Source: Actinobacteria bacterium casp-actino2
GTDB lineage: Bacteria > Actinomycetota > Acidimicrobiia > Acidimicrobiales > Ilumatobacteraceae
Direction: 5' to 3'
NCBI GenBank assembly: GCA_001510335.1
Contig: LFFB01000007.1
Span: 1-32,328, forward strand
Length of the DNA: 32,328 nucleotides
Under the pieces are notes generated by a model. The model saw only the letters and a list, made by a program, of their open reading frames with translations, was not told the origin of the DNA and searched no databases. How positions within the stretch are numbered: the stretch's first letter is position 1; each line of letters opens with the position of its first letter. Of the stretch, positions 16,824 through 26,686 are shown in pieces. Both the position numbers and the translations under genes were made by a program.

Positions 16824-18401
16824 ATGGCTTCACCAATTTCACGTCGGATGTTTTTTGCCCTCAGTGCCTCGGTCGTCGTGGTCGCTTGCTCAAAGGATGA
16901 AAAGTCGGCAGATACGCAACCAGGGACATCAACTACTTCTGCTCCGACCACCAGTCCGGTTCCACAGGTAGCACTATCGGGTGATCCGTTCACTCTTGGC
17001 GTTGCTTCAGGAGACCCCACAACCGAGTCGGTGATCTTGTGGACGCGGCTAGCGATTGATGCCCTCAACGGCGGTGGCATGCCTGACGAAAACATTGATG
17101 TGCTTTGGGAAGTCTCAAGCACTGATCAATTCACCGACATCATTGCTTCTGGTGTTGCGACCGCCGAAACAAGATTTGGTCACGCAATTCATGTCGATGT
17201 TCCGCTGCCCACTCAACAAAGTGTTGTTTCATATCGGTTCCGAGTGGGCGACTACACGAGTCCCGTTGGTCAAACACGACTAGCAGCACCCGCTGATTCA
17301 GTTGAGCCAGTACGCATTGCCACGGCATCGTGCCAGAACTACACCGCTGGTTATTACACCGCGTATCACGACATGGTGCAAGAGGCGCCGGATTTGGTTG
17401 TTTTCCTTGGCGACTACATCTACGAAGGTGGTGTCGGAACTCTCGGCGACAATACGGTTCGTCTTCATAACAGCGAAGAAATCACTGACATCAACGCGTA
17501 CCGAAATCGGTACGGACTGTACAAAAGTGATCCTCTTTTGCAGGCTGCTCACGCTGTTTGTCCTTGGGTCGTTACTTGGGACGACCATGAAGTGGAGAAC
17601 AACTACGCCAACTTAAATCCCCAAGACGCCACTGACACGGCTGGGTTTGCTGAACGTCGCGCCGCGGCTTACCAAGTTTGGTGGGAACATATGCCGGTTC
17701 GACTTGCCCCGCCCGTTGACCAAGACCTCACCATTTACCGTCAGGTCAAGTGGGGTGGACTTGTCAACATGCTTGTTCTTGATAGTCGTCAATATCGCGA
17801 CGATCAAGCCTGTGGAGATACCATTCTGCAAGTTACGCCCGCTTGTGAAGAAGCTCTGCTCCCCGACCGAACCATTCTCGGCACACAACAAGAAACATGG
17901 GTTGCCGACAACGTGGTGAGTGATTCCACATGGACCGTCCTCGCCAACCAAACCGTCATGACCGATATCAGACTCGGTGCAGCGATTCTGAATTACGACC
18001 AGTGGGATGGTTATGCCCCATCACGCGATCGACTACTTGAAACCGTTGCCACGGCTCAGGCGAAAAATCTCATCGTACTCACCGGCGATATTCATCTGGG
18101 AGGCGTTGGCCAACTGACAACCACATCTGATCCAGAGACTCCACGAGGTATTGAGTTTGTCGCGACATCAATCTCATCAAGTGGCAGCGTCAACGCAGCA
18201 ACCGAAGCCCTCTTTGTCTCTTTAACCAACATCATTGATGCCGAGGCACAACATCGTGGTTACATTTTGCACACCGTCACCGCTGATTCGTGGACTGCCG
18301 ATTACCGCATTGTTGATAATGCGTTAGTAGAGGGTTCGACAGTTTCGACGTGGAAAACTTTCAAGGTGACTGCGGGTTCCCCTGAAGTCATTGAAGTCTG
18401 A
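16824..18401 (+). CDS. phoD: PhoD-like alkaline phosphatase/phosphodiesterase, Tat-exported lipoprotein
   Basis: A metal-dependent phosphatase of the PhoD family, 525 residues, acting outside the membrane to release phosphate from phosphoesters. The start MASPISRRMFFAL gives a twin-arginine signal (R7-R8), a hydrophobic core and a lipobox-like VVAC with C22; a Thr/Ser/Pro linker follows to about residue 48. An N-terminal domain (50-155) precedes the catalytic domain: C170 in TASCQNY, D197 and Y200 in LGDYIYEGG, WDDHE at 252-256 with N259-N260, and TGDIHLGG at 420-427. These match the Fe/Ca ligand motifs of PhoD. Upstream in-frame ATGs at 16758 and 16785 would put the twin arginines 30 or more residues in, so 16824 is preferred. 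Its 3' end lies 2 bp from the next convergent gene. Confidence 0.88.
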   Translation: MASPISRRMFFALSASVVVVACSKDEKSADTQPGTSTTSAPTTSPVPQVALSGDPFTLGVASGDPTTESVILWTRLAIDALNGGGMPDENIDVLWEVSSTDQFTDIIASGVATAETRFGHAIHVDVPLPTQQSVVSYRFRVGDYTSPVGQTRLAAPADSVEPVRIATASCQNYTAGYYTAYHDMVQEAPDLVVFLGDYIYEGGVGTLGDNTVRLHNSEEITDINAYRNRYGLYKSDPLLQAAHAVCPWVVTWDDHEVENNYANLNPQDATDTAGFAERRAAAYQVWWEHMPVRLAPPVDQDLTIYRQVKWGGLVNMLVLDSRQYRDDQACGDTILQVTPACEEALLPDRTILGTQQETWVADNVVSDSTWTVLANQTVMTDIRLGAAILNYDQWDGYAPSRDRLLETVATAQAKNLIVLTGDIHLGGVGQLTTTSDPETPRGIEFVATSISSSGSVNAATEALFVSLTNIIDAEAQHRGYILHTVTADSWTADYRIVDNALVEGSTVSTWKTFKVTAGSPEVIEV

Positions 18402-18403
18402 TT

Positions 18404-18724
18404 TCAGCCCTGTACAACGCAATCAATTACCTTATCGACAATTGCCGTACCTTCGTCTGAGAGACCAATAGCGGTGGTCTCAAGAGTTCCATTAATCAAT
18501 CCATCCAAGTTCTCGGTCAGAAGATTCACATCTGCATCACTTAATTCTGAAAGGACTTTGTCGAGGCAGTCTGCGTCTACTTCAATACCTTGATCGCCAG
18601 CCGACTTAATGAGTTCTTGTGCAATAACTTCAGCGCCATTGGAGTTACCGCCATCGTCGTCACCACATGACGAAAAGCCCACGATTGCAATTGCTGATAC
18701 CACTAATCCGACAAACTTTTTCAC
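18404..18724 (-). CDS. Small lipoprotein of unknown function
   Basis: A 106-residue predicted lipoprotein. The signal MKKFVGLVVSAIAIVGFSSC ends in a lipobox-like FSSC at C20, followed by an acidic Asp/Gly/Asn linker (GDDDGGNSNG). The mature part is all-helical and acidic (AEVIAQELIKSAG, LDKVLSELSDADVNLLTENL), with one cysteine in VDADCLDKV and one in the final IDCVVQG, which could pair. I do not recognise the family. The GTG start at 18724 is chosen because AGGAG lies 6 nt upstream; the frame is open to 18781, but that extension has no such site. It is 57 bp downstream of the permease and closes the six-gene minus-strand block. Confidence 0.7.
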   Translation of the reverse strand: MKKFVGLVVSAIAIVGFSSCGDDDGGNSNGAEVIAQELIKSAGDQGIEVDADCLDKVLSELSDADVNLLTENLDGLINGTLETTAIGLSDEGTAIVDKVIDCVVQG

Positions 18725-18730
18725 TTCCGG

Positions 18731-18735
18731 CTCCT
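18731..18735 (-). promoter_or_regulatory. Ribosome binding site deciding a GTG start (small lipoprotein)
   Basis: AGGAG on the minus strand lies 6 nt before GTG 18724. With the signal peptide beginning at that codon it fixes the start. Confidence 0.55.
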
Positions 18736-18781
18736 GGCAAATCATCACTTGACGTTCAAATGCGTGCCAAACCCTAGTCAT

Positions 18782-20773
18782 CTAGGCCGAAGCTAAAACG
18801 GATTTCTCTTGCTTGGCCAGTTCTTTTGCGTGCCGCTTTTGCGCAACTTGCATTCGAATACCACCGGCGATTCCTTCGGGATTGGCAATCGCAGTGACAA
18901 TCAACAACACTCCACCTATGAGTGCCTCCCAACGACCAAATGAACCGAACACTTGATTCATCGAATAAAAAGCAACTCCTGATGCTGCCGTGACACCGGC
19001 AGTCACTGCTCCGCTGACGCTTGTGATACCACCGAGATAGGCGAACGATAACGCTGTCAGCGACGCAATGGTTCCGTACGACAGATCGGACACGGCACCG
19101 AATCGATAAGCAATCAGGGAACCACCCATACCGGCGATAAAGGCCGACAACCCGAACATCATCATCTTCACATGGGTGTTGTTGATGCCAACAGCTGCTG
19201 CCGCCCTTTCATTGCTACGAACTGCCAACATCACTCGACCCGATCCACTGCGACGAATGTTGGCCACCATCAGACACAAAACCGTCAGAACCGCCAAAAG
19301 GAAAAAGGCAAACACGGGTCGCGATGTCTTATTTCCGTACACCAACCCTAAGTTCCAATCACCCAACGATGGATTGGGAATTTTTGGTCCTCCAGTAGCC
19401 ATGCTGCCGATTACCCACGGATGCTTAAAGACAAATTCGGCAATGGTCACTCCGCCGGCCAGGGTCACGATCGCCAAGTTGGTACCACGTACCCTCAGGG
19501 CCGGTAGACCAACCAAAACCCCGAACACCATGGCACCAAGCGCCGCAAGAATAGGAGCGATCGGAAAGGGGATTCCGTAATTGGTCGCCAATTTTGACAA
19601 CGCGAATCCGCCAATACCAGCAAAAGCCATTTGAGCAAGAGAAGTCTGACCACCAAAACCGATCAAGACGACGAAAGACAATGCCAAGACCGCCGCGATC
19701 AACGAACTCATAATGGCGGCGCGCCACAACGGTCCAAGGAAAAGAATGCCCGCTGACGCAATCAGAATGGGTACTCCCACTGAAAACCACGTGACATTGG
19801 CTGGCGGAACGTACGGCAGTTTCCAGCCACCAACCGCTCCACGTTCGGGCAGACGCTCACCCGACACAATCATGGTGACGATGATGACCATAAACGGCAA
19901 ACCCTCGCGCATTCCATACTGAGGCCACCAACTAAAATCAAGTTGCATCTTGGTGAATGTGCTCTGCACCATTCCGATGGCAACACCCGTTAACACTGTT
20001 GGCCAAAAGTTGCGGAACTTACCAATGAGTGCAGCACCCAATGCTGGAATCAAGAAACCAAATGTAAAAATCGAACCATTGAGTTGCACGAGAGGTGCGG
20101 CCAAAATGGCAACTACTGCACCGACAACCGAAGAAAGCACCCAGCCCGAAGCCGCCAAGAAATCGGGTGAATGACCGAGAAGAACAGCTCCCTTTTCATT
20201 CTCGGCGGCCGCTCGAGTGGCGAGACCAAATCGGAGGTACTTACTGACTGCCCACACAACGAGGGTGATCAGTAGCACAATGCCCAACAGCCAAAGTCCG
20301 TCTCGCGGCACGCGAAGGGATTCGGTAATCGTCACGACCTCGCGGGGCAAAATTGGATCGACTCGCATTGCGAGTTGATCAGGAAACCGTCGATCCTTCA
20401 GACCAATCAAAACAATGATCAAGCCCACACTGGCCACAACTCGAGCCAAAGCGGGAGCATTTCTTAAGGGACGAAATATCAATGCGTATATAACCAGTCC
20501 GGTAAGCGCCGCAGTCAACAGAGCCAAAATAAATGCCCATATGAAGCCGACATCGCCGCCAAAGTGGTACCGGTCTGGCAGACCCGGAATGGGGAACAAA
20601 TAGGCCCCATTCCGGAGTTCTGCGTAAACGTAAGCACTCCACATTGCAATCGCGCCGTAGGCAAAATTGACAATGCCAGAGCCCTGATAACTAATGATGA
20701 GACCCATTGCAAAACCAGCAATGATCGCCCCAGCAGCGCTACCGAGCAACAAGTAAAAAAGATAGTCATTCAT
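18782..20773 (-). CDS. Fused LivH-LivM branched-chain amino-acid-type ABC permease
   Basis: A 663-residue inner-membrane permease that joins both LivHM-type subunits in one chain. The LivH-like half is about 1-320: SYQGSGIVNFAYGAIAM at 29-45 and its ATPase-contact loop RFGLATRAAAENEKGAVLLG at 181-200. The LivM-like half is about 330-645: GFGGQTSLAQMAFAGIGGF at 372-390, VRGTNLAIVTLAGG at 428-441, and its contact loop around GRVMLAVRSNERAAAAVGI at 512-530. A charged tail (KRHAKELAKQEK) ends the protein. Substrates of this family include branched-chain amino acids, amides, urea and aromatic acids. The binding protein is 45 bp upstream, but no LivG/LivF ATPase gene is in the window. Confidence 0.93.
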   Translation of the reverse strand: MNDYLFYLLLGSAAGAIIAGFAMGLIISYQGSGIVNFAYGAIAMWSAYVYAELRNGAYLFPIPGLPDRYHFGGDVGFIWAFILALLTAALTGLVIYALIFRPLRNAPALARVVASVGLIIVLIGLKDRRFPDQLAMRVDPILPREVVTITESLRVPRDGLWLLGIVLLITLVVWAVSKYLRFGLATRAAAENEKGAVLLGHSPDFLAASGWVLSSVVGAVVAILAAPLVQLNGSIFTFGFLIPALGAALIGKFRNFWPTVLTGVAIGMVQSTFTKMQLDFSWWPQYGMREGLPFMVIIVTMIVSGERLPERGAVGGWKLPYVPPANVTWFSVGVPILIASAGILFLGPLWRAAIMSSLIAAVLALSFVVLIGFGGQTSLAQMAFAGIGGFALSKLATNYGIPFPIAPILAALGAMVFGVLVGLPALRVRGTNLAIVTLAGGVTIAEFVFKHPWVIGSMATGGPKIPNPSLGDWNLGLVYGNKTSRPVFAFFLLAVLTVLCLMVANIRRSGSGRVMLAVRSNERAAAAVGINNTHVKMMMFGLSAFIAGMGGSLIAYRFGAVSDLSYGTIASLTALSFAYLGGITSVSGAVTAGVTAASGVAFYSMNQVFGSFGRWEALIGGVLLIVTAIANPEGIAGGIRMQVAQKRHAKELAKQEKSVLASA

Positions 20774-20794
20774 AATGTGGTTCTCAATTTTCCT

Positions 20795-20809
20795 TGTTGC
20801 TCGGCAACA
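20795..20809. repeat. Perfect hairpin between binding-protein and permease genes
   Basis: TGTTGC (20795-20800) and GCAACA (20804-20809) form a perfect 6-bp stem with a 3-nt loop. It sits in the 45-bp gap between the binding-protein stop and the permease start, with AAGGA following on the minus strand. No T-run follows. The position suits an mRNA-stabilising element or partial terminator that keeps binding protein in excess over permease. Confidence 0.5.
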
Positions 20810-20818
20810 CTTAACTGA

Positions 20819-22189
20819 TCAGGGGAGCAGCGGGATGCTGTCCCACAATTTGGCGTTGTCAACGGTGACCACCGCTCCATCTTTGTACTCCGTAGCCTCA
20901 AAGACGAACGAGCAGAACGACGAGTAGGTCGGAGCAGCTGCGCCGCAGTCGAGTGGAGTGATTCCGCCAAACAGGTACAGACCATCAGTTACCTTTAGGT
21001 AGTCGTACAAGTTTTGACCCGTCATCTCAGTACCTTCAGCAACCATTTGGGCGGCAATGTCACGGAGCGTCAACGTCAAAACGGTTCCCAGACCACCAAG
21101 GCCGAGAGCAGTGGTCTTCACATCAGCGGGCTCAACACCCATTTCGCCTGTTTCCTCATTTGGAATATAAGGAGCCAAGATCTTTTGGAGCAATGCCTTT
21201 TCTGGGGTGTCGCGTTCAATTTGACCACCAACGAATACCCAACCATTTGCATCATCGCCAACTTGGCTGATGACATCGCTATCCGAGCAGATGCTGGTCG
21301 TCAAGACTGGCTTGGTGATACCCGCAGTGGCATAACCACGAATGGTTCCGATACAGCCAGCATCGGCATACAGCGAGATCAAAATATCAGGGTCATCCGC
21401 ATCGGCGGCCTTCATCAAACCGAGATAGCCCGCATCGGTTTCGTTATCTCCACCTTTGACGGCTTTCCATTTGATTCCAGCCTTATCTAAAGCTGCTTGA
21501 ACACCAGCAGCAGTTGAGTTAGCCCCTGCATTGTCGGCATGAATCATGCCGACGGTCTTGGCCTGGTAGCGATCCTGAGCGATCACGGCCATGACCGCAG
21601 TCGTCGTCGCGTTTCCACCCGTCAAGAACAAGGCTTCCGCCGTGTTGTCGGGCGGCAGAATCGGCAATACGCCAATCACGGGAATGTTCGCTGCTCCATA
21701 GGTGGCATAGTCAGGGAACAGATCGAGTCCTAGAAGGACCAGTTCAACGCCCTTACCGATTAACTCTTGAGCACATTTCTGTGACGTTTCAGGAGTACCA
21801 CCAGCAACGCAGGTTTCGAATTTGACCGGGCGACCACCGAATCCACCACTGGAATTCATGTATTCAAAAGCGGCCTCGGCAAAGCGACGAAGATCTGGAA
21901 AGTCAAGACCGTTGGGATTGCCTTCGGTGTTGACCATTCCGATCAGCATCTCAGGTCCAGTCGGCGGACCGTCTTCGCTTACAGGTGCATCCGTGCCTGG
22001 AGCATCCGAGGTCATCGGTGCGTCACTCGACGGTGCTTCGCTTGTTGCCGGTGCTTCAGTTTCCGCTGGCGTACTATCGCCATCGTCACCACCACAGGCA
22101 ACAAAGAACAGACCGCCAGCAACGATCGCGGCGAGCGCTCGTGAGCGCCGCCGTGATCCTGGAGTCCCCAAACTCATGGATCGTGTCAT
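20819..22189 (-). CDS. ABC transporter substrate-binding lipoprotein (LivJ/K type)
   Basis: A periplasmic-binding-protein-like lipoprotein of 456 residues, type I fold, that would capture the substrate for the LivHM permease. The signal peptide (arginine-rich RRRSR, then ALAAIVAGGLFF) ends at the lipobox FVAC with C32. A long low-complexity Ala/Pro/Ser/Thr/Asp linker runs to about residue 78. The binding core starts at MLIGMVNTEGNPNG and includes AAFEYMNSSGGFGGRPV and CVAGGTPETSQKCAQELI, typical of the family. ATG 22189 has GAGGGGG upstream. Ligand identity cannot be read; the neighbouring oxygenase suggests an aromatic or isoprenoid-derived compound (inference). Confidence 0.92.
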   Translation of the reverse strand: MTRSMSLGTPGSRRRSRALAAIVAGGLFFVACGGDDGDSTPAETEAPATSEAPSSDAPMTSDAPGTDAPVSEDGPPTGPEMLIGMVNTEGNPNGLDFPDLRRFAEAAFEYMNSSGGFGGRPVKFETCVAGGTPETSQKCAQELIGKGVELVLLGLDLFPDYATYGAANIPVIGVLPILPPDNTAEALFLTGGNATTTAVMAVIAQDRYQAKTVGMIHADNAGANSTAAGVQAALDKAGIKWKAVKGGDNETDAGYLGLMKAADADDPDILISLYADAGCIGTIRGYATAGITKPVLTTSICSDSDVISQVGDDANGWVFVGGQIERDTPEKALLQKILAPYIPNEETGEMGVEPADVKTTALGLGGLGTVLTLTLRDIAAQMVAEGTEMTGQNLYDYLKVTDGLYLFGGITPLDCGAAAPTYSSFCSFVFEATEYKDGAVVTVDNAKLWDSIPLLP

Positions 22190-22208
22190 ATTTCCCCCTC
22201 AGTTGTAT

Positions 22209-22223
22209 GCCGCGAATTGCGGC
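22209..22223. repeat. Perfect hairpin between oxygenase and binding-protein genes
   Basis: GCCGC (22209-22213) and GCGGC (22219-22223) form a perfect GC-rich stem around a 5-nt GAATT loop, in the 40-bp gap upstream of the binding-protein gene. Together with the hairpin at 20795-20809 it brackets that gene. Confidence 0.45.
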
Positions 22224-22229
22224 GCTTAC

Positions 22230-23570
22230 TTAGTTGGCCACTGTGGCCGATACCCAACTGCCGTGGAACCCAAAGGGGATTCGTGGCAGTTGAACAGTTG
22301 CAATGAATTCGCTGCTCATGGACTTGGCGTCCACGATGACGAACTCACTTGCGTCCTTGTGTTGGTCATAGATGTATGTCATCAAGTAACCATCGTCTTC
22401 AGTCTTGGCGCCTTCGGCTGGAGCGAATACGACTTCGCCGCAGGTGCGACCTTTACCGAGTTTGATTTCAGCGCAAGTTCCGGCCTGACGGTCGTACTTC
22501 AAAATCGCACCTTCGTCAACTTGACCAAAGCCGGCGTTACCCATCGACATCTCGTAGCCGTAACGGTGCTTCTTGCCGATGACTGCATCGTTCACGCGCG
22601 GGAATTCTGCTCCACGATCATCAATTTGTTCTTCGGTGACTTTGCCAGTGGTGGTGTTAATGGTCCAGCGCCACAAGTTGGGAGGCGGGAAGTCCATCGC
22701 ATCTTTTTTCCAGATGTGTTCAAACCGAGCCACATCAAGAATGATCTTGTCGCCTTCTTCGTAGCTGTTCATTGGGTGGAAGACGTAGCACGGATTGATG
22801 TCGTACCACTTCACTTGTGAATCGTTTCCGTTACGTGGCATCACACCAAGACGTGCTGGGTATGTGTCACTCCATGTGATCGGCATCTTGCCTTCGATGG
22901 CCAAGTTGAGATCAAACACCGCAGGCAGGTCCATGAACACCACGTAGTTTTCGGTGATGTTGAAGTCGTGCATCATGGTTGAACCAGTGACGGTAATTTC
23001 TTCGCGCTGCACCATCTTGCCATCGGCCGATACACGGAAGTAGGTGAGGTAAGGAGGCAGTGGTGCATAACCAAATGCCAACATCTCGCCAGTCGTCGGG
23101 CAGATCTTCGGGTGTGCGGTGAATGCGCCCTTCAAAACGCCGTTGTAATCGGTTGAACCAATGGTGTTCAGGTTGCCGTCAAGTACGTACGGGAAGTGTC
23201 CTTCTTCAAGAGCAAGAATTTGGCCTGCGTGTCCAACCACGTGAGTGTTGGCTTTCGAACACGTCATGTCCATCGTGACCGAAGGGTCAAGGATATTGAT
23301 CGATGGATCCTTGATGAAAGGTGTCTGCACATAGCGGTTGCGATACCACTTTGCTGCACCGTCTTGTAGACGAAGACCGTGGATCATTCCGTCGCCAAAG
23401 AACGGGTGATCGCTCATACCAGTTAACGGATTCGCACCATTACGAAGGTAGCGACCATCAAGCTCAGTAGGAATGCTTCCCACAACTTTCAGATCGGTCA
23501 GCGTGAGTTCTTCTTGGGTTGGACGACCGTTACCTTGAAGGTGAGCCGGGATTTCTTCAAGCATTGACAT
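22230..23570 (-). CDS. Carotenoid cleavage oxygenase family (RPE65-like) protein
   Basis: A non-haem iron(II) dioxygenase of 446 residues in the family that cleaves carotenoids, apocarotenoids or lignostilbenes at a double bond. All four iron-binding histidines are visible: H153 in FTAHPKICP, H201 in MMHDFNITENYVVF, H265 in CYVFHPMNSYEEGD and H436 in GFHGSWV near the C-terminus. The N-terminus has the family element GRYLRNGANPL at 39-49 and HPFFGDGMIHG at 55-65. There is no signal peptide, so it is cytosolic. AGGAG precedes ATG 23570 by 9 nt. It is 45 bp downstream of the PPOX protein and 40 bp upstream of the binding protein, so a catabolic role on an imported substrate is plausible; the sequence does not separate carotenoid from stilbene specificity. 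Confidence 0.93.
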   Translation of the reverse strand: MSMLEEIPAHLQGNGRPTQEELTLTDLKVVGSIPTELDGRYLRNGANPLTGMSDHPFFGDGMIHGLRLQDGAAKWYRNRYVQTPFIKDPSINILDPSVTMDMTCSKANTHVVGHAGQILALEEGHFPYVLDGNLNTIGSTDYNGVLKGAFTAHPKICPTTGEMLAFGYAPLPPYLTYFRVSADGKMVQREEITVTGSTMMHDFNITENYVVFMDLPAVFDLNLAIEGKMPITWSDTYPARLGVMPRNGNDSQVKWYDINPCYVFHPMNSYEEGDKIILDVARFEHIWKKDAMDFPPPNLWRWTINTTTGKVTEEQIDDRGAEFPRVNDAVIGKKHRYGYEMSMGNAGFGQVDEGAILKYDRQAGTCAEIKLGKGRTCGEVVFAPAEGAKTEDDGYLMTYIYDQHKDASEFVIVDAKSMSSEFIATVQLPRIPFGFHGSWVSATVAN

Positions 23571-23615
23571 GATGTGTCTCCTGAGTGATGAGGGTTATTG
23601 ACTATTGAAAATTGT

Positions 23616-24116
23616 TTACTTCTTGACTGCGTCTGGTGATCGAGCCCACATCAATGTGGCATCGAAACTGAGTGAATAATCGGGAATAAATTCCATGATC
23701 ACGCGATGTGGTGAATCAAGGAACTTGCGGAATTCGTCGGCGGCCTGCTGATTGTCGGGACGCAAACGATTAGCGAACTCGGGATAGAACCAATCTTTGG
23801 TGGCACGGTCGTCGTGAATAAAGCAGTCACCCTTATAGGTAATGGTTTTGCCACCACCAAGACTTGAGCCAGTGCTGTTGATACAAATCGATGAACGTGG
23901 ATTACGTCGTAACGCCGGAATGCGCTTGCGGGTTTCGGCGGCGGTCAACCACAACTTGCCGTCTTTGGGCAGATACGACATCACCACACCAAAAGGTTCG
24001 CCCTTGTTGTTGACCCACATGAAGACACATTCGCCCAGTGAGTAGACCAACTTGTGTTCAAGCTCTGGGGTGAGAGCACATTCGGTGAGATCTTCATAAC
24101 TGTCTTGGTTGGACAT
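23616..24116 (-). CDS. Pyridoxamine-5'-phosphate-oxidase-like (PPOX) flavin-binding protein
   Basis: A 166-residue split-barrel protein of the PPOX class, binding FMN or F420. Visible elements are the strand GECVFMWVNNKGEPFGVVMSY, KLWLTAAETRKRIPALRRNP (the phosphate-side strand and helix) and SSICINS, followed by TYKGDCFIHDD and a C-terminal VIMEFIPDYSLSFD. Such proteins carry out redox reactions on small substrates; which one is not evident. AAGGGA lies 5 nt before ATG 24116. It is 78 bp downstream of the TetR gene and 45 bp upstream of the oxygenase, so it probably serves the same pathway. Confidence 0.87.
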   Translation of the reverse strand: MSNQDSYEDLTECALTPELEHKLVYSLGECVFMWVNNKGEPFGVVMSYLPKDGKLWLTAAETRKRIPALRRNPRSSICINSTGSSLGGGKTITYKGDCFIHDDRATKDWFYPEFANRLRPDNQQAADEFRKFLDSPHRVIMEFIPDYSLSFDATLMWARSPDAVKK

Positions 24117-24150
24117 TGCGTTCCCTTAACTCACTAGTTGATCAATATGT

Positions 24151-24159
24151 GACGACAGT
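24151..24159. promoter_or_regulatory. Second match to the TetR operator half-site
   Basis: GACGACAGT matches the half-site GCCGACAGT of the inverted repeat at 24807-24831 in 8 of 9 positions and lies in the promoter region of the PPOX-oxygenase-transporter genes. The opposite half is poor (about 5 of 9) and the spacing differs by one base, so this is a weak call. Confidence 0.25.
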
Positions 24160-24183
24160 AACACGCCCGTCGCGCCATATCTA

Positions 24184-24206
24184 CCCCGCGTAAGTTATTT
24201 ACGGGG
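24184..24206. repeat. Bulged hairpin across the TetR stop codon
   Basis: CCCCGCGTAA (24184-24193) pairs with TTACGGGG (24199-24206), leaving a 2-nt CG bulge. It spans the TetR stop codon at 24195-24197. No T-run follows on the minus strand, so it would at most attenuate read-through into the PPOX gene. Confidence 0.35.
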
Positions 24207-24806
24207 ACCCTGTAGTCCGTTCCACATCAAGTCGCTGATCTGAGCGGCTACTTCGTCAACGGCCCGCTCGGGCTGGGTGATCCACCACACCGAAATCATT
24301 TGCAGCATTCCCACGATGGCAAATGACCAGGCATCTGCCACTTTGGGGTCCTGACCTTGGCTTTTGCGCCAAACCGCAAGGGTTTTAGCCAAAGGTGTCG
24401 TTGAGCGTTCGGCTAGGGACAGGCGTCCGATGGCGGTTTGTTCGGTGGTTCCACCCGTGACGTACAAGAAAAGTTCACGATGTTCGGCCACCGCCAACAA
24501 GTTGGCCCGCACCAACCGGCTCAGGCTGGCCTGATTCAGCGTTTCGCCGGCGATTGCGTCCTCGGTCGCTTCGAGCATCCGATCGGAGAGGCGTTCGGCC
24601 AGGGCGTCAGCCAATTCGGCTCGCCCACCGACCCGGTCGTACACAATCGGCTTGGTTACCCCGGCCTCTACGGCGACCGCTTCGAGGGATGCCCCCGGTC
24701 CGTCTCGCTTGATGACCCGTTCAGCGGCGTCAAGCACATGATCTCGATCGATCACCAGTTGCCCACCAATCGGGCGGCCTGGACGACGCGACGACGGAGC
24801 AGACAT
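24195..24806 (-). CDS. TetR-family transcriptional regulator
   Basis: A 203-residue repressor-type regulator. The N-terminal HTH is at about 24-68: HVLDAAERVIKRDG, then ASLEAVAVEAGVTKPIVYDRVG with the recognition helix, then RAELADALAERL. The C-terminal helical domain (about 75-200) would bind a ligand and dimerise; the ligand is unknown. An arginine/proline-rich N-terminal arm (SSRRPGRP) may contact DNA. ATG 24806 is preferred over GTG 24833 because a 25-bp inverted repeat, a likely autoregulatory operator, occupies 24807-24831. It heads the six-gene minus-strand block and is divergent from the SDR at 24927, so it could control both directions. Confidence 0.9.
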   Translation of the reverse strand: MSAPSSRRPGRPIGGQLVIDRDHVLDAAERVIKRDGPGASLEAVAVEAGVTKPIVYDRVGGRAELADALAERLSDRMLEATEDAIAGETLNQASLSRLVRANLLAVAEHRELFLYVTGGTTEQTAIGRLSLAERSTTPLAKTLAVWRKSQGQDPKVADAWSFAIVGMLQMISVWWITQPERAVDEVAAQISDLMWNGLQGPRK

Positions 24807-24831
24807 GCCGACAGTCTGCCCCACTATCGGC
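24807..24831. promoter_or_regulatory. Probable TetR operator: inverted repeat abutting the TetR start
   Basis: The left arm GCCGACAGT (24807-24815) and right arm ACTATCGGC (24823-24831) are inverted repeats matching at 8 of 9 positions, with a 7-nt spacer CTGCCCC. The element touches the TetR start codon in the 120-bp gap between the divergent TetR and SDR genes. Binding there would block TetR transcription, as in autoregulated TetR systems. Confidence 0.55.
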
Positions 24832-24926
24832 ACTGCTTCAAAGAATTCTTCAAATTGCCCCTATCGCCAGGTTTCTTACTGCTGGTAACTTTTACGCAGA
24901 TTCAAAATACACATGGGGGAATTCTG

Positions 24927-25682
24927 ATGAGTGGACTATTTGATCTGTCGGACGATGTCGCAGTCGTGACCGGAGCCGGTCGCGGTATCGGCGAAGGCAT
25001 TGCGAAGACTTTGGCCGAGGCTGGCGCCGCAGTTGTGTGTGCCGCGCGACGTGCCGATGAAGTTGAACGAGTGGCTGCAGAAATTCGTGCAGCCGGCGGC
25101 CGTGCTATTGCCATGCCTACTGACGTCACCGATAACGCCGCGGTTGAAGCTCTCGCGCAAAAAGCCATCAGCGAATTTGGTCATCTTGATATTTGGGTGA
25201 ACAACGCCGGTGGTTCACCGATTCAAGCACCACTCACCAATCTCGATCCCAACGAATGGGATGCAACAATGCGACTCAACATCACGTCCGTTTGGGTATG
25301 CACCAACGTTGCGGCACGACTCATGCGCGATGGTGGACGCATTGTGAATATCTCATCGAAGGCCGCCGTCAATACCGTGATGGGAAGCGGTCACTACGCA
25401 GCTGCAAAAGCAGCGGTGAACTCACTCACCGTTACTTATGCAAAAGAACTTGGTCCACGTATTCGCGTGAACTGCATCATGCCTGGTGCAGTACCAACCG
25501 AAATCATGATGAAGGCTTTGCGTCTTGAAGACGATGACTTGCCAAAACTTGAAAAGATGTTGCGCTTGCCTATGCGCCGTTTAGGTACACCGGAAGATTT
25601 AGGTCAAGCAGTTTTGTATTTCGTTTCACCGGCTTCTAGTTGGGTAACGGGTCAAGTCATTGGCATCGACGGAGGTTTGTGA
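24927..25682 (+). CDS. Short-chain dehydrogenase/reductase (SDR)
   Basis: A classical NAD(P)-dependent SDR of 251 residues. TGAGRGIG is at 15-22, NNAG at 92-95, and the catalytic set S144, Y157 and K161 is intact; it ends with WVTGQVIGIDGG. An arginine pair after CAA (39-42) may favour NADP(H). The substrate is unknown. The frame is open far upstream to 24438, but that part is antisense to the TetR gene; ATG 24927 follows GGGGGA and is the true start. A four-codon frame (ATG 24913) ends in TGA overlapping this ATG. The next gene's ATG overlaps its stop (TGATG), indicating coupled expression with the MDR reductase. Confidence 0.92.
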   Translation: MSGLFDLSDDVAVVTGAGRGIGEGIAKTLAEAGAAVVCAARRADEVERVAAEIRAAGGRAIAMPTDVTDNAAVEALAQKAISEFGHLDIWVNNAGGSPIQAPLTNLDPNEWDATMRLNITSVWVCTNVAARLMRDGGRIVNISSKAAVNTVMGSGHYAAAKAAVNSLTVTYAKELGPRIRVNCIMPGAVPTEIMMKALRLEDDDLPKLEKMLRLPMRRLGTPEDLGQAVLYFVSPASSWVTGQVIGIDGGL

Positions 25683-26686
25683 TGACTGAGTTAAACAAGA
25701 AAATCGTTTTGAAGAGTCGTCCCGCTCATCGCCCAGATGATTCAAACTTTGAATATCGTGAAGAACAAACCGCAGAACTCACTGATGGAATGTTGCTGAT
25801 CAAGGTTGATCTTCTCGGTATTGATGCGTTTATTCGCACCACTTTGAATGAAGGCAGTTTTCATCGAGGTGCCGAAATAGGCGGAGTCATCCCCGCTCTC
25901 GGAGTTGGTGTCGTTCTTGAAAGCAAGGCAGAAGGTTTCGCCGCAGGCGACCATGTCTTTGGACCGCTATGTTCACAAACTCATGCAGTGATGCCAGCGT
26001 TCACCATGAAAAAGATTGACACGACAGTTGCACCTGCGTCGGCGTATCTCGGAGCACTTGGATTGACCACTGGGCTCACTGCGTACTTCGGAATTGTTGA
26101 TGTCGGTCAAGTCAAGCCTGGCGACACTGTTGTTGTCTCTGGAGCAGCCGGAGCTGTTGGTTCAGTTGCTGGTCAGATCGCCCGCCTGAGTGGTGCAAGC
26201 AAAGTCATCGGCATTGCCGGTGGCGCTCACAAATCAAAGTTCTTGGTTGACGAACTGAAGTTTGACGCAGCGATTGATTACAAGAATGAAAATGTTGCAG
26301 CGCGACTTGATGAGTTGGCGCCCGATGGCATCAATGTGTTCTTTGACAATGTTGGCGGCAACATTCTTGATGATGTGTTGATGCGCATTGTTGAGGGATC
26401 ACGCATTGTCATTTGCGGCGGCATATCTCAGTACGAAAACATGGACGATGTTCGCGGACCCAAGAACTACCTCAAGTTGGCCGAACGACGTGCGCGTATG
26501 GAGGGCTTTGCGGTCTTCCATTTCGCTGAACACTACGCCCGTGCCGAAAAGAGTCTTGCCGATTGGCTGCGTAGCGGAGAATTGGTTGTTCGTGAACAGA
26601 TCGAACAAGGTGTTGAGAACTTCCCAGCCGTCATGAACCTGTTGATGACGGGTGGCCATTACGGCAAATTGCTTCTCAAGGTGTAG
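25682..26686 (+). CDS. Zinc-independent MDR-family NADP-dependent oxidoreductase (PTGR/CurA-like)
   Basis: A medium-chain reductase of 334 residues related to leukotriene-B4 12-hydroxydehydrogenase / prostaglandin reductase and CurA, which reduce the double bond of alpha,beta-unsaturated ketones or aldehydes with NADPH. The nucleotide-binding loop is SGAAGAVGS at 153-161, followed by VGSVAGQIARLSGASKVIGIAGG. The substrate-side motif FFDNVGGNILD is typical of the group, and catalytic zinc ligands are absent. The start ATG overlaps the SDR stop by one base, with GGAGG from the SDR's last codons as ribosome binding site. With the SDR it could act in sequence on an unsaturated carbonyl compound (inference). 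Confidence 0.9.
   Translation: MTELNKKIVLKSRPAHRPDDSNFEYREEQTAELTDGMLLIKVDLLGIDAFIRTTLNEGSFHRGAEIGGVIPALGVGVVLESKAEGFAAGDHVFGPLCSQTHAVMPAFTMKKIDTTVAPASAYLGALGLTTGLTAYFGIVDVGQVKPGDTVVVSGAAGAVGSVAGQIARLSGASKVIGIAGGAHKSKFLVDELKFDAAIDYKNENVAARLDELAPDGINVFFDNVGGNILDDVLMRIVEGSRIVICGGISQYENMDDVRGPKNYLKLAERRARMEGFAVFHFAEHYARAEKSLADWLRSGELVVREQIEQGVENFPAVMNLLMTGGHYGKLLLKV

Follow-up and report, generated by a model that had tools for sequence, protein, structure and literature searches.

The contig LFFB01000007.1 (contig 7 of a 1.57 Mb draft genome, 68% complete) of Actinobacteria bacterium casp-actino2, a member of the family Ilumatobacteraceae, carries a block of genes around a predicted carotenoid cleavage oxygenase (CCO). 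The stretch analyzed, positions 1 to 32,328 of the contig, is referred to here as the window. An earlier inspection of the DNA, made without database searches (the sequence-only reading), had described six co-directional genes encoding a TetR regulator, a PPOX-type flavoprotein, the CCO, a LivK-type binding lipoprotein, a fused LivH-LivM permease (LivHM) and a small lipoprotein. All six open frames are present on the minus strand (Table 1), with gaps of 78, 45, 40 and 45 bp between the first five and 0 bp before the small lipoprotein, or 57 bp when the latter is read from its internal GTG. Pfam matches back the identities of the TetR, oxygenase, binding protein and permease, and the four histidines of the oxygenase are conserved. 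The PPOX protein scored 31 bits against the F420-dependent PPOX oxidoreductase model TIGR03618 and did not reach its curated cut-off of 79. A promoter and terminator scan of positions 18000-25200 was uninformative, because the counts obtained (4 promoter-like and 9 terminator-like sites) lie near the shuffle means of 5.2 and 8.0.

Table 1. Predicted genes and sites of the CCO block and its divergent neighbours (window coordinates).
Feature	Position	Strand	Evidence and remarks
TetR-family regulator	24195..24806	-	frame opens at 24833; TetR_N 27.7 bits, cut-off 24
PPOX-type (PNPOx-like) flavin or F420 protein	23616..24116	-	PNPOx_N 25.7 bits, below cut-off 28.1
Carotenoid cleavage oxygenase (CCO), four-histidine iron enzyme	22230..23570	-	RPE65/PF03055 398 bits, E 1e-118, cut-off 27
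LivK-type binding lipoprotein	20819..22189	-	Peripla_BP_6 81 bits; type I binding-protein fold
Fused LivH-LivM permease	18782..20773	-	two BPD_transp_2 stretches in a single frame
Small lipoprotein	18404..18781 (probable start 18724)	-	no Pfam family; local
Divergent SDR oxidoreductase	24927..25682	+	80-83% identical copies adjoin the block in g22, g25 and g19 loci
CurA-like (MDR) alkenal/enone reductase	25682..26686	+	NCBIfam curcumin reductase 279 bits, cut-off 440; follows the SDR in other genera
Palindrome TTAC-N5-GTAA, probable TetR operator	24876..24888	.	between the SDR and TetR starts

The block is retained in other genera while the flanking genes change, indicating that its arrangement goes beyond chance. 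In g22, g25 and g19 loci the order is MDR, SDR and, divergently, TetR, in some cases an ecdysteroid-kinase-like (EcKL) phosphotransferase, PPOX, CCO, LivK and LivHM; some of these loci are without one member, or have it past the contig end. Note that the genes of relatives were called by tblastn and codon usage, and that gene starts outside the window are approximate. Most actinobacterial blocks have a PPOX protein of 67-99% identity, the exceptions being L174 (45%) and L084 (40%). The small lipoprotein or a homologue of it turned up solely in closely related genomes within the genus, and G056 and G069 carry it in tandem copies. By these comparisons, the family conserves as one unit the predicted TetR, PPOX, CCO, LivK and LivHM genes and, divergent from them, SDR and MDR. 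Thus, five of the six genes originally grouped together stay as the core, the small lipoprotein falls outside the unit, and the divergent SDR, the CurA-like reductase and the palindrome have to be added.

Several genera, as well as four gammaproteobacterial-type loci, have an EcKL phosphotransferase beside their CCO (L077:4629-5642, L127:12193-13242 and L097:8412-9443 are EcKL coordinates). The homologue in the window genome, 55% identical, is on contig 4, outside the block.

To quantify the linkage between oxygenase and transporter, one set of 150 family genomes was searched for both LivHM and CCO, and co-location was counted over the 94 LivHM matches listed (in list order, E to ~1e-100) and the ~150 CCO matches listed. 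LivHM proteins of at least 52% identity were taken as close orthologues (n = 33), a line drawn after the list had been inspected. Among these matches, CCO adjoins 29 of the 33 close orthologues: 25 have a CCO within 5 kb, and in 4 (G143, G040, G034 and G099) the contig ends in a CCO fragment. As for the remaining four, G066 has a block without CCO, G024 has no CCO on a 5.6 kb contig, and in G037 and G064 the contig ends within 1.4 kb upstream. In contrast, of the LivHM paralogues listed below 52% identity, only 1 of 61 has a CCO within 5 kb (9 of 61 within 16 kb). Elsewhere in the order, outside the family, a listed CCO (E to 1e-110) is no more than 5 kb away for 15 of the 62 LivHM matches listed (E to 1e-100). 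This linkage spans four families, with other gene orders; in one of the other families, LivHM and CCO are 160-171 bp apart in seven of eight cases. The coupling of the predicted CCO and transporter genes is therefore a conserved feature, as the sequence-only reading had anticipated, and the transporter is likely to be linked to the CCO substrate. The CCO concerned can vary: in g11, g13, g14, g17, g18 and g19 genomes the one adjoining LivHM can be a 46-53% relative, not the close CCO (E <1e-200), which was found in 38 of the 150 family genomes. The sequence-only reading knew of no well-described locus with this gene set, and our literature search likewise listed no paper describing it, as judged by titles and abstract openings, with subscription journals mostly outside its coverage.

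The transporter genes have a history of their own. In nucleotide comparisons, G069 shares 91-93% with the window in CCO and 67-70% in LivK-LivHM, with the shift at the CCO/LivK boundary, whereas g25 genomes show the opposite trend. Correspondingly, the LivHM tree places the window with g25 and G069 outside, and the PPOX-CCO tree does the reverse; forcing the PPOX-CCO grouping on the LivHM data was rejected (approximately unbiased test, p-AU 2e-72). From these discordant identities and trees we conclude that the LivK-LivHM cassette is exchanged between genera independently of CCO. The exchanged cassette corresponds to positions 18782-22189 of the window and was compared with L066 and L074.

LivK has an invariant lipoprotein cysteine (Cys32 in 20 sequences) and a predicted structure with a type I binding-protein fold (predicted local distance difference test score, pLDDT, 81; best Z 29.7); among the bacterial binding proteins of known structure listed, identities to it are 11-18%. 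The system shares the type I binding lipoprotein and the LivH and LivM domains with Liv/HAAT importers, including the aromatic-acid importers of Rhodopseudomonas. It differs from them in that the permease halves are fused and no LivG/LivF was found in the locus. The LivK fold was also considered as a guide to the ligand and proved non-diagnostic.

We next consider the regulator. The palindrome between SDR and TetR is the sole match to TTAC-N5-GTAA in the window, and the longer pattern ASTTAC-N5-GTAAS has a single match in the draft genome. Taking one SDR/TetR gap per genome and leaving out the window (n = 29), TTAC-N5-GTAA was found in 25 gaps as against 0.03 expected from shuffles, although these are not independent events, since the genomes are related. 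The other four gaps contain GTAC-N5-GTAC (three) or CTAC-N5-GTAA (L165), so that a loose form of the palindrome occurs in 29/29 gaps (0.38 expected). Counted per genome, the pattern is mostly no more frequent than its reversed control (1 versus 8 matches in G000; control equal or higher in most of 7 genomes), and the palindrome is thus informative by position only. An extra strict-form site in G056 and G069 precedes, by ~10 bp, the called start of a gene; at its N-terminus the product matches a PEP-utiliser-domain-like protein. Proteins of this type are encoded at L203:1526-3016 and L078:15716-17437, with a counterpart in the block region of G066.

A similar arrangement was found outside the Actinobacteria. 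CCO relatives were scanned with two CCO peptide patterns; among the best 80 of 175, 34 loci are non-actinobacterial by title. A TetR of 36-44% identity directly adjoins the CCO in 13 of these 34, an adjacency that requires at least 7 changes on the tree. With a CCO-side site defined as YTAC-N5-GTA within 250 bp upstream or in the first 60 bp of CCO, such a site was present in 13/13 non-actinobacterial loci with the adjoining TetR and in 0/21 without it, a split that does not amount to 34 independent observations because just 3 well-supported independent pairs underlie it. When all TetR/CCO gaps are considered (15, two of them actinobacterial), 13 match YTAC-N5-GTA from the CCO side; L124 and L162 match on the other strand only, indicating that this variant is an imperfect palindrome. 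These findings show that predicted TetR, matching palindrome and CCO co-occur across phyla, and the 13/13 versus 0/21 split suggests that the TetR probably controls the CCO.

The predicted TetR structure resembles those of FasR, PfmR, DesT and FadR, and also those of MtrR, NalD and EthR. The first four are among the closest solved folds, but the block TetR differs from them in sequence (~20% identity). Its best NCBIfam model is FasR (38.9 bits, cut-off 330). FasR, DesT and FadR are acyl-CoA-responsive regulators.

What might the oxygenase cleave? In 13 aligned CCO sequences, the window included, which came from a protein search and not from the peptide patterns, the iron-binding residues H153, H201, H265 and H436 are invariant. 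E123, E322 and E379, putative second-sphere acidic residues, are invariant as well, with E123 the one placed by alignment to a solved enzyme. The closest solved matches are named carotenoid 9,10-dioxygenase, followed by VP14 and then by lignostilbene enzymes, and the best NCBIfam model is NF052295 (8'-apo-carotenoid 13,14-cleaving dioxygenase). Like MtCCO (Rv0654) and CCD1-type enzymes, the block CCO is a four-histidine RPE65-family protein. It differs from these in lying in a putatively TetR-controlled block with a binding-protein transporter, and in scoring 406.5 bits against NF052295, below the cut-off of 675. With the lignostilbene dioxygenases (SYK-6 enzymes, NOV1, PbLSD) it shares the fold family, the four histidines and the Phe59/61 position (F57). 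In contrast, the positions of PbLSD Tyr103 and Lys135 (5v2d) are occupied by Leu and Glu122, the latter invariant in the 13 sequences. These residues equal Tyr101 and Lys134 by our mapping of the 5v2d chain to the published numbering (offset 20), and according to two reports Tyr101 and Lys134 bind the 4-hydroxyl group of lignostilbenes (PMC8191317, PMC6097328). The CCO thus lacks the Tyr101/Lys134 pair, and since these substrate-binding residues are replaced, stilbene cleavage is unlikely.

The source of a carotenoid-type substrate was addressed by searching for squalene/phytoene synthase (PF00494). No match was found in the 12 genomes of the genus that were sampled (24 are in the collection; seven of the 12 are listed as 90-97% complete), so a substrate of this type, if such it is, would most likely be exogenous, and this lake bacterium seems unable to make carotenoids. 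M. tuberculosis provides a parallel (review PMC5133782), in that a CCO is kept by a host in which carotenogenic genes were not found, like this genus. Across the family, PF00494 matches occur in 9/38 genomes with the close CCO and in 29/112 others. A link to rhodopsin was also considered and rejected, as there is no positive association (rhodopsin match in 14/38 genomes with the close CCO versus 53/112 others). Judged by these matches, retinal supply is not a general purpose of the block.

Further CCO clusters suggest where ATPases and downstream enzymes might come from. In the sister genus g25 (L213, L218), an orphan LivG-LivF pair lies inside a second CCO cluster together with thiolase-like, acyl-CoA-synthetase-like, P450, SDR and enoyl-CoA-hydratase-like proteins. 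In G043 the second cluster and the block share one contig, and in G022 (L214) the same second cluster also has its own LivK-LivHM. The LivG-LivF of the second cluster may serve the block transporter. In the gammaproteobacterial loci L162 and L168, TetR and CCO are accompanied by two MaoC-like pieces, an MDR, a second CCO and a PPOX (44-46% identical), without the transporter; the CurA-like reductase homologue in these loci is 49-50% identical. The recurring partners (CurA-like reductase, SDR and, in L162 and L168, the proteins just named) would fit a role in handling carbonyl products. Moreover, 10 of the 34 non-actinobacterial loci have, beside the CCO, a TonB-dependent receptor (L129, L132 and L153; L179 by clustering with L153) or an MFS_2 carrier (L131; five more loci by clustering), a proportion for which no background rate was measured. 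This suggests that the CCO is repeatedly paired with import machinery.

Regarding the clusters themselves, the second-CCO loci are L213:1-18000 and L218 (G025, G043), and L214 (G022), where a molybdopterin oxidoreductase and Liv genes also occur; a second-CCO catabolic cluster is also on contig 79 of the window genome (L099). SnoaL-like proteins are further members of these clusters. A third CCO (L217:1-6800, contig 34 of G043) lies near LivK, LivHM and LivG, and three CCO paralogues of one genome are thus near Liv genes.

Taken together, we somewhat favor the view that the block serves, under TetR control, to scavenge an apocarotenoid-like polyene from outside the cell, a substrate that we infer. 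The LivK lipoprotein would bind such a polyene, an apocarotenoid of phytoplankton being the most likely one, and LivHM would carry it in, driven by LivG-LivF ATPases encoded elsewhere. The CCO would cut a C=C bond, yielding carbonyls (enals or enones), which the CurA-like reductase, the SDR and perhaps the PPOX protein would reduce or oxidize for CoA-dependent breakdown. Bound at the palindrome that the two operons share, the TetR would keep both its own and the SDR-MDR operon repressed until a product of the pathway, possibly an acyl-CoA, causes its release. The neighbourhood and palindrome counts, the lack of PF00494 matches in the genus, the names of the nearest solved CCO sequences, the acyl-CoA regulators among the TetR structure matches, the P450, CoA enzymes and LivG-LivF of the second g25 cluster and the MaoC, MDR and PPOX neighbours in L162 and L168 count in favor of scavenging. 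The apocarotenoid reading would be the most economical account of the block, if an unproven one. Of the uptake and cleavage of an apocarotenoid or stilbene-like compound proposed in the sequence-only reading, the stilbene half is disfavored and the apocarotenoid half is kept as a conjecture.

Several observations weigh against scavenging. For 30 of 31 blocks, no LivG-LivF ATPase turned up within 5 kb, several contigs ending sooner; L086 is the sole block with such a pair, and LivG-like genes are present elsewhere in the window genome. No LivK-LivHM transporter was found beside the CCO on the stretches examined of the 34 non-actinobacterial loci, and in genus g2 (L097, L098) the close CCO is accompanied by EcKL with the transporter missing beside it. 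The independent exchange of the cassette weakens a strict one-to-one pairing of CCO and transporter, though the cassette returns to the same place. Consequently, the claim that the oxygenase has its own uptake system holds for linkage and not for exclusive ownership. In addition, the LivK fold matches amino-acid, aromatic-acid and fatty-acid binders alike, singling out no ligand; the CCO misses the cut-off of NF052295; a tree-aware test of the TetR/palindrome association is weak (sign test p 0.25 on the 3 supported independent pairs, each of them concordant); and the absence of PF00494 matches from the genus relies on draft genomes.

Some of these observations would equally suit a transporter that imports an ordinary Liv substrate, such as an amino acid or a short organic acid, while being merely co-regulated or co-located with the CCO. 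The ATPase result, the non-actinobacterial loci without the transporter, the exchange of the cassette and the fold matches of LivK, which include leucine-binding proteins, all point that way. We nevertheless consider this rather unlikely, given that CCO adjoins the close LivHM orthologues so much more often than the paralogues and that four more families of the order show the linkage again, with their genes arranged differently. A lignostilbene or phenylpropanoid module, combining Liv-type import of aromatic acids with stilbene cleavage, could draw on the common superfamily (229 bits against the NCBIfam lignostilbene model, cut-off 800) and on the aromatic-acid binders among the LivK fold matches. 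It appears improbable, as Leu and the invariant Glu122 occupy the positions of the 4-hydroxyl-binding Tyr and Lys and the top solved matches carry the 9,10-dioxygenase name.

The remaining alternatives concern carotenoids in other roles. CCO enzymes elsewhere often turn over or detoxify the cell's own carotenoids, and about a quarter of the close-CCO genomes (the 9/38 above) do have a PF00494 match; such a function is very improbable here, with 0/12 matches in the genus and a transporter that would be left without a role. Hardly any weight can be given to the supply of retinal for rhodopsin from imported apocarotenoids. Although 3/12 genus genomes match rhodopsin but not PF00494, rhodopsin matches are less frequent in genomes with the close CCO than in the others, and G022 (97% complete) carries the block but lacks a rhodopsin match.

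Extending the scavenging view beyond the order, we tentatively raise the possibility of a cross-phylum apocarotenoid module, in which a core of TetR, palindrome and CCO has import machinery attached lineage by lineage. In Acidimicrobiia this would be LivK-LivHM without ATPases, a cassette exchanged at the CCO/LivK boundary and perhaps driven by the LivG-LivF of the second cluster; in some proteobacteria it would be a TonB-dependent receptor or an MFS_2 carrier. In a genus with no PF00494 match in 12 genomes, a CCO is kept next to an uptake system, with a putative regulator of its own. Should the substrate be an apocarotenoid, these aquatic bacteria would feed on, or remove, breakdown products of algal pigments. 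The regulator, the candidate operator and the binding protein are all open to bench testing.

Two further observations were made on the loci compared. An F420-type luciferase-like oxidoreductase recurs near the CCO (L128:1883-2752, L163, L170 and L076:4607-5479), with 79-84% identity between actinobacterial loci and a Pseudomonadales record. Finally, the metagenome contigs L106, L108, L150 and L182 bear the record titles Bifidobacterium breve or Ferrithrix, while their genes agree with those of the window's family in near-identical sequence or in synteny, suggesting mislabelling.

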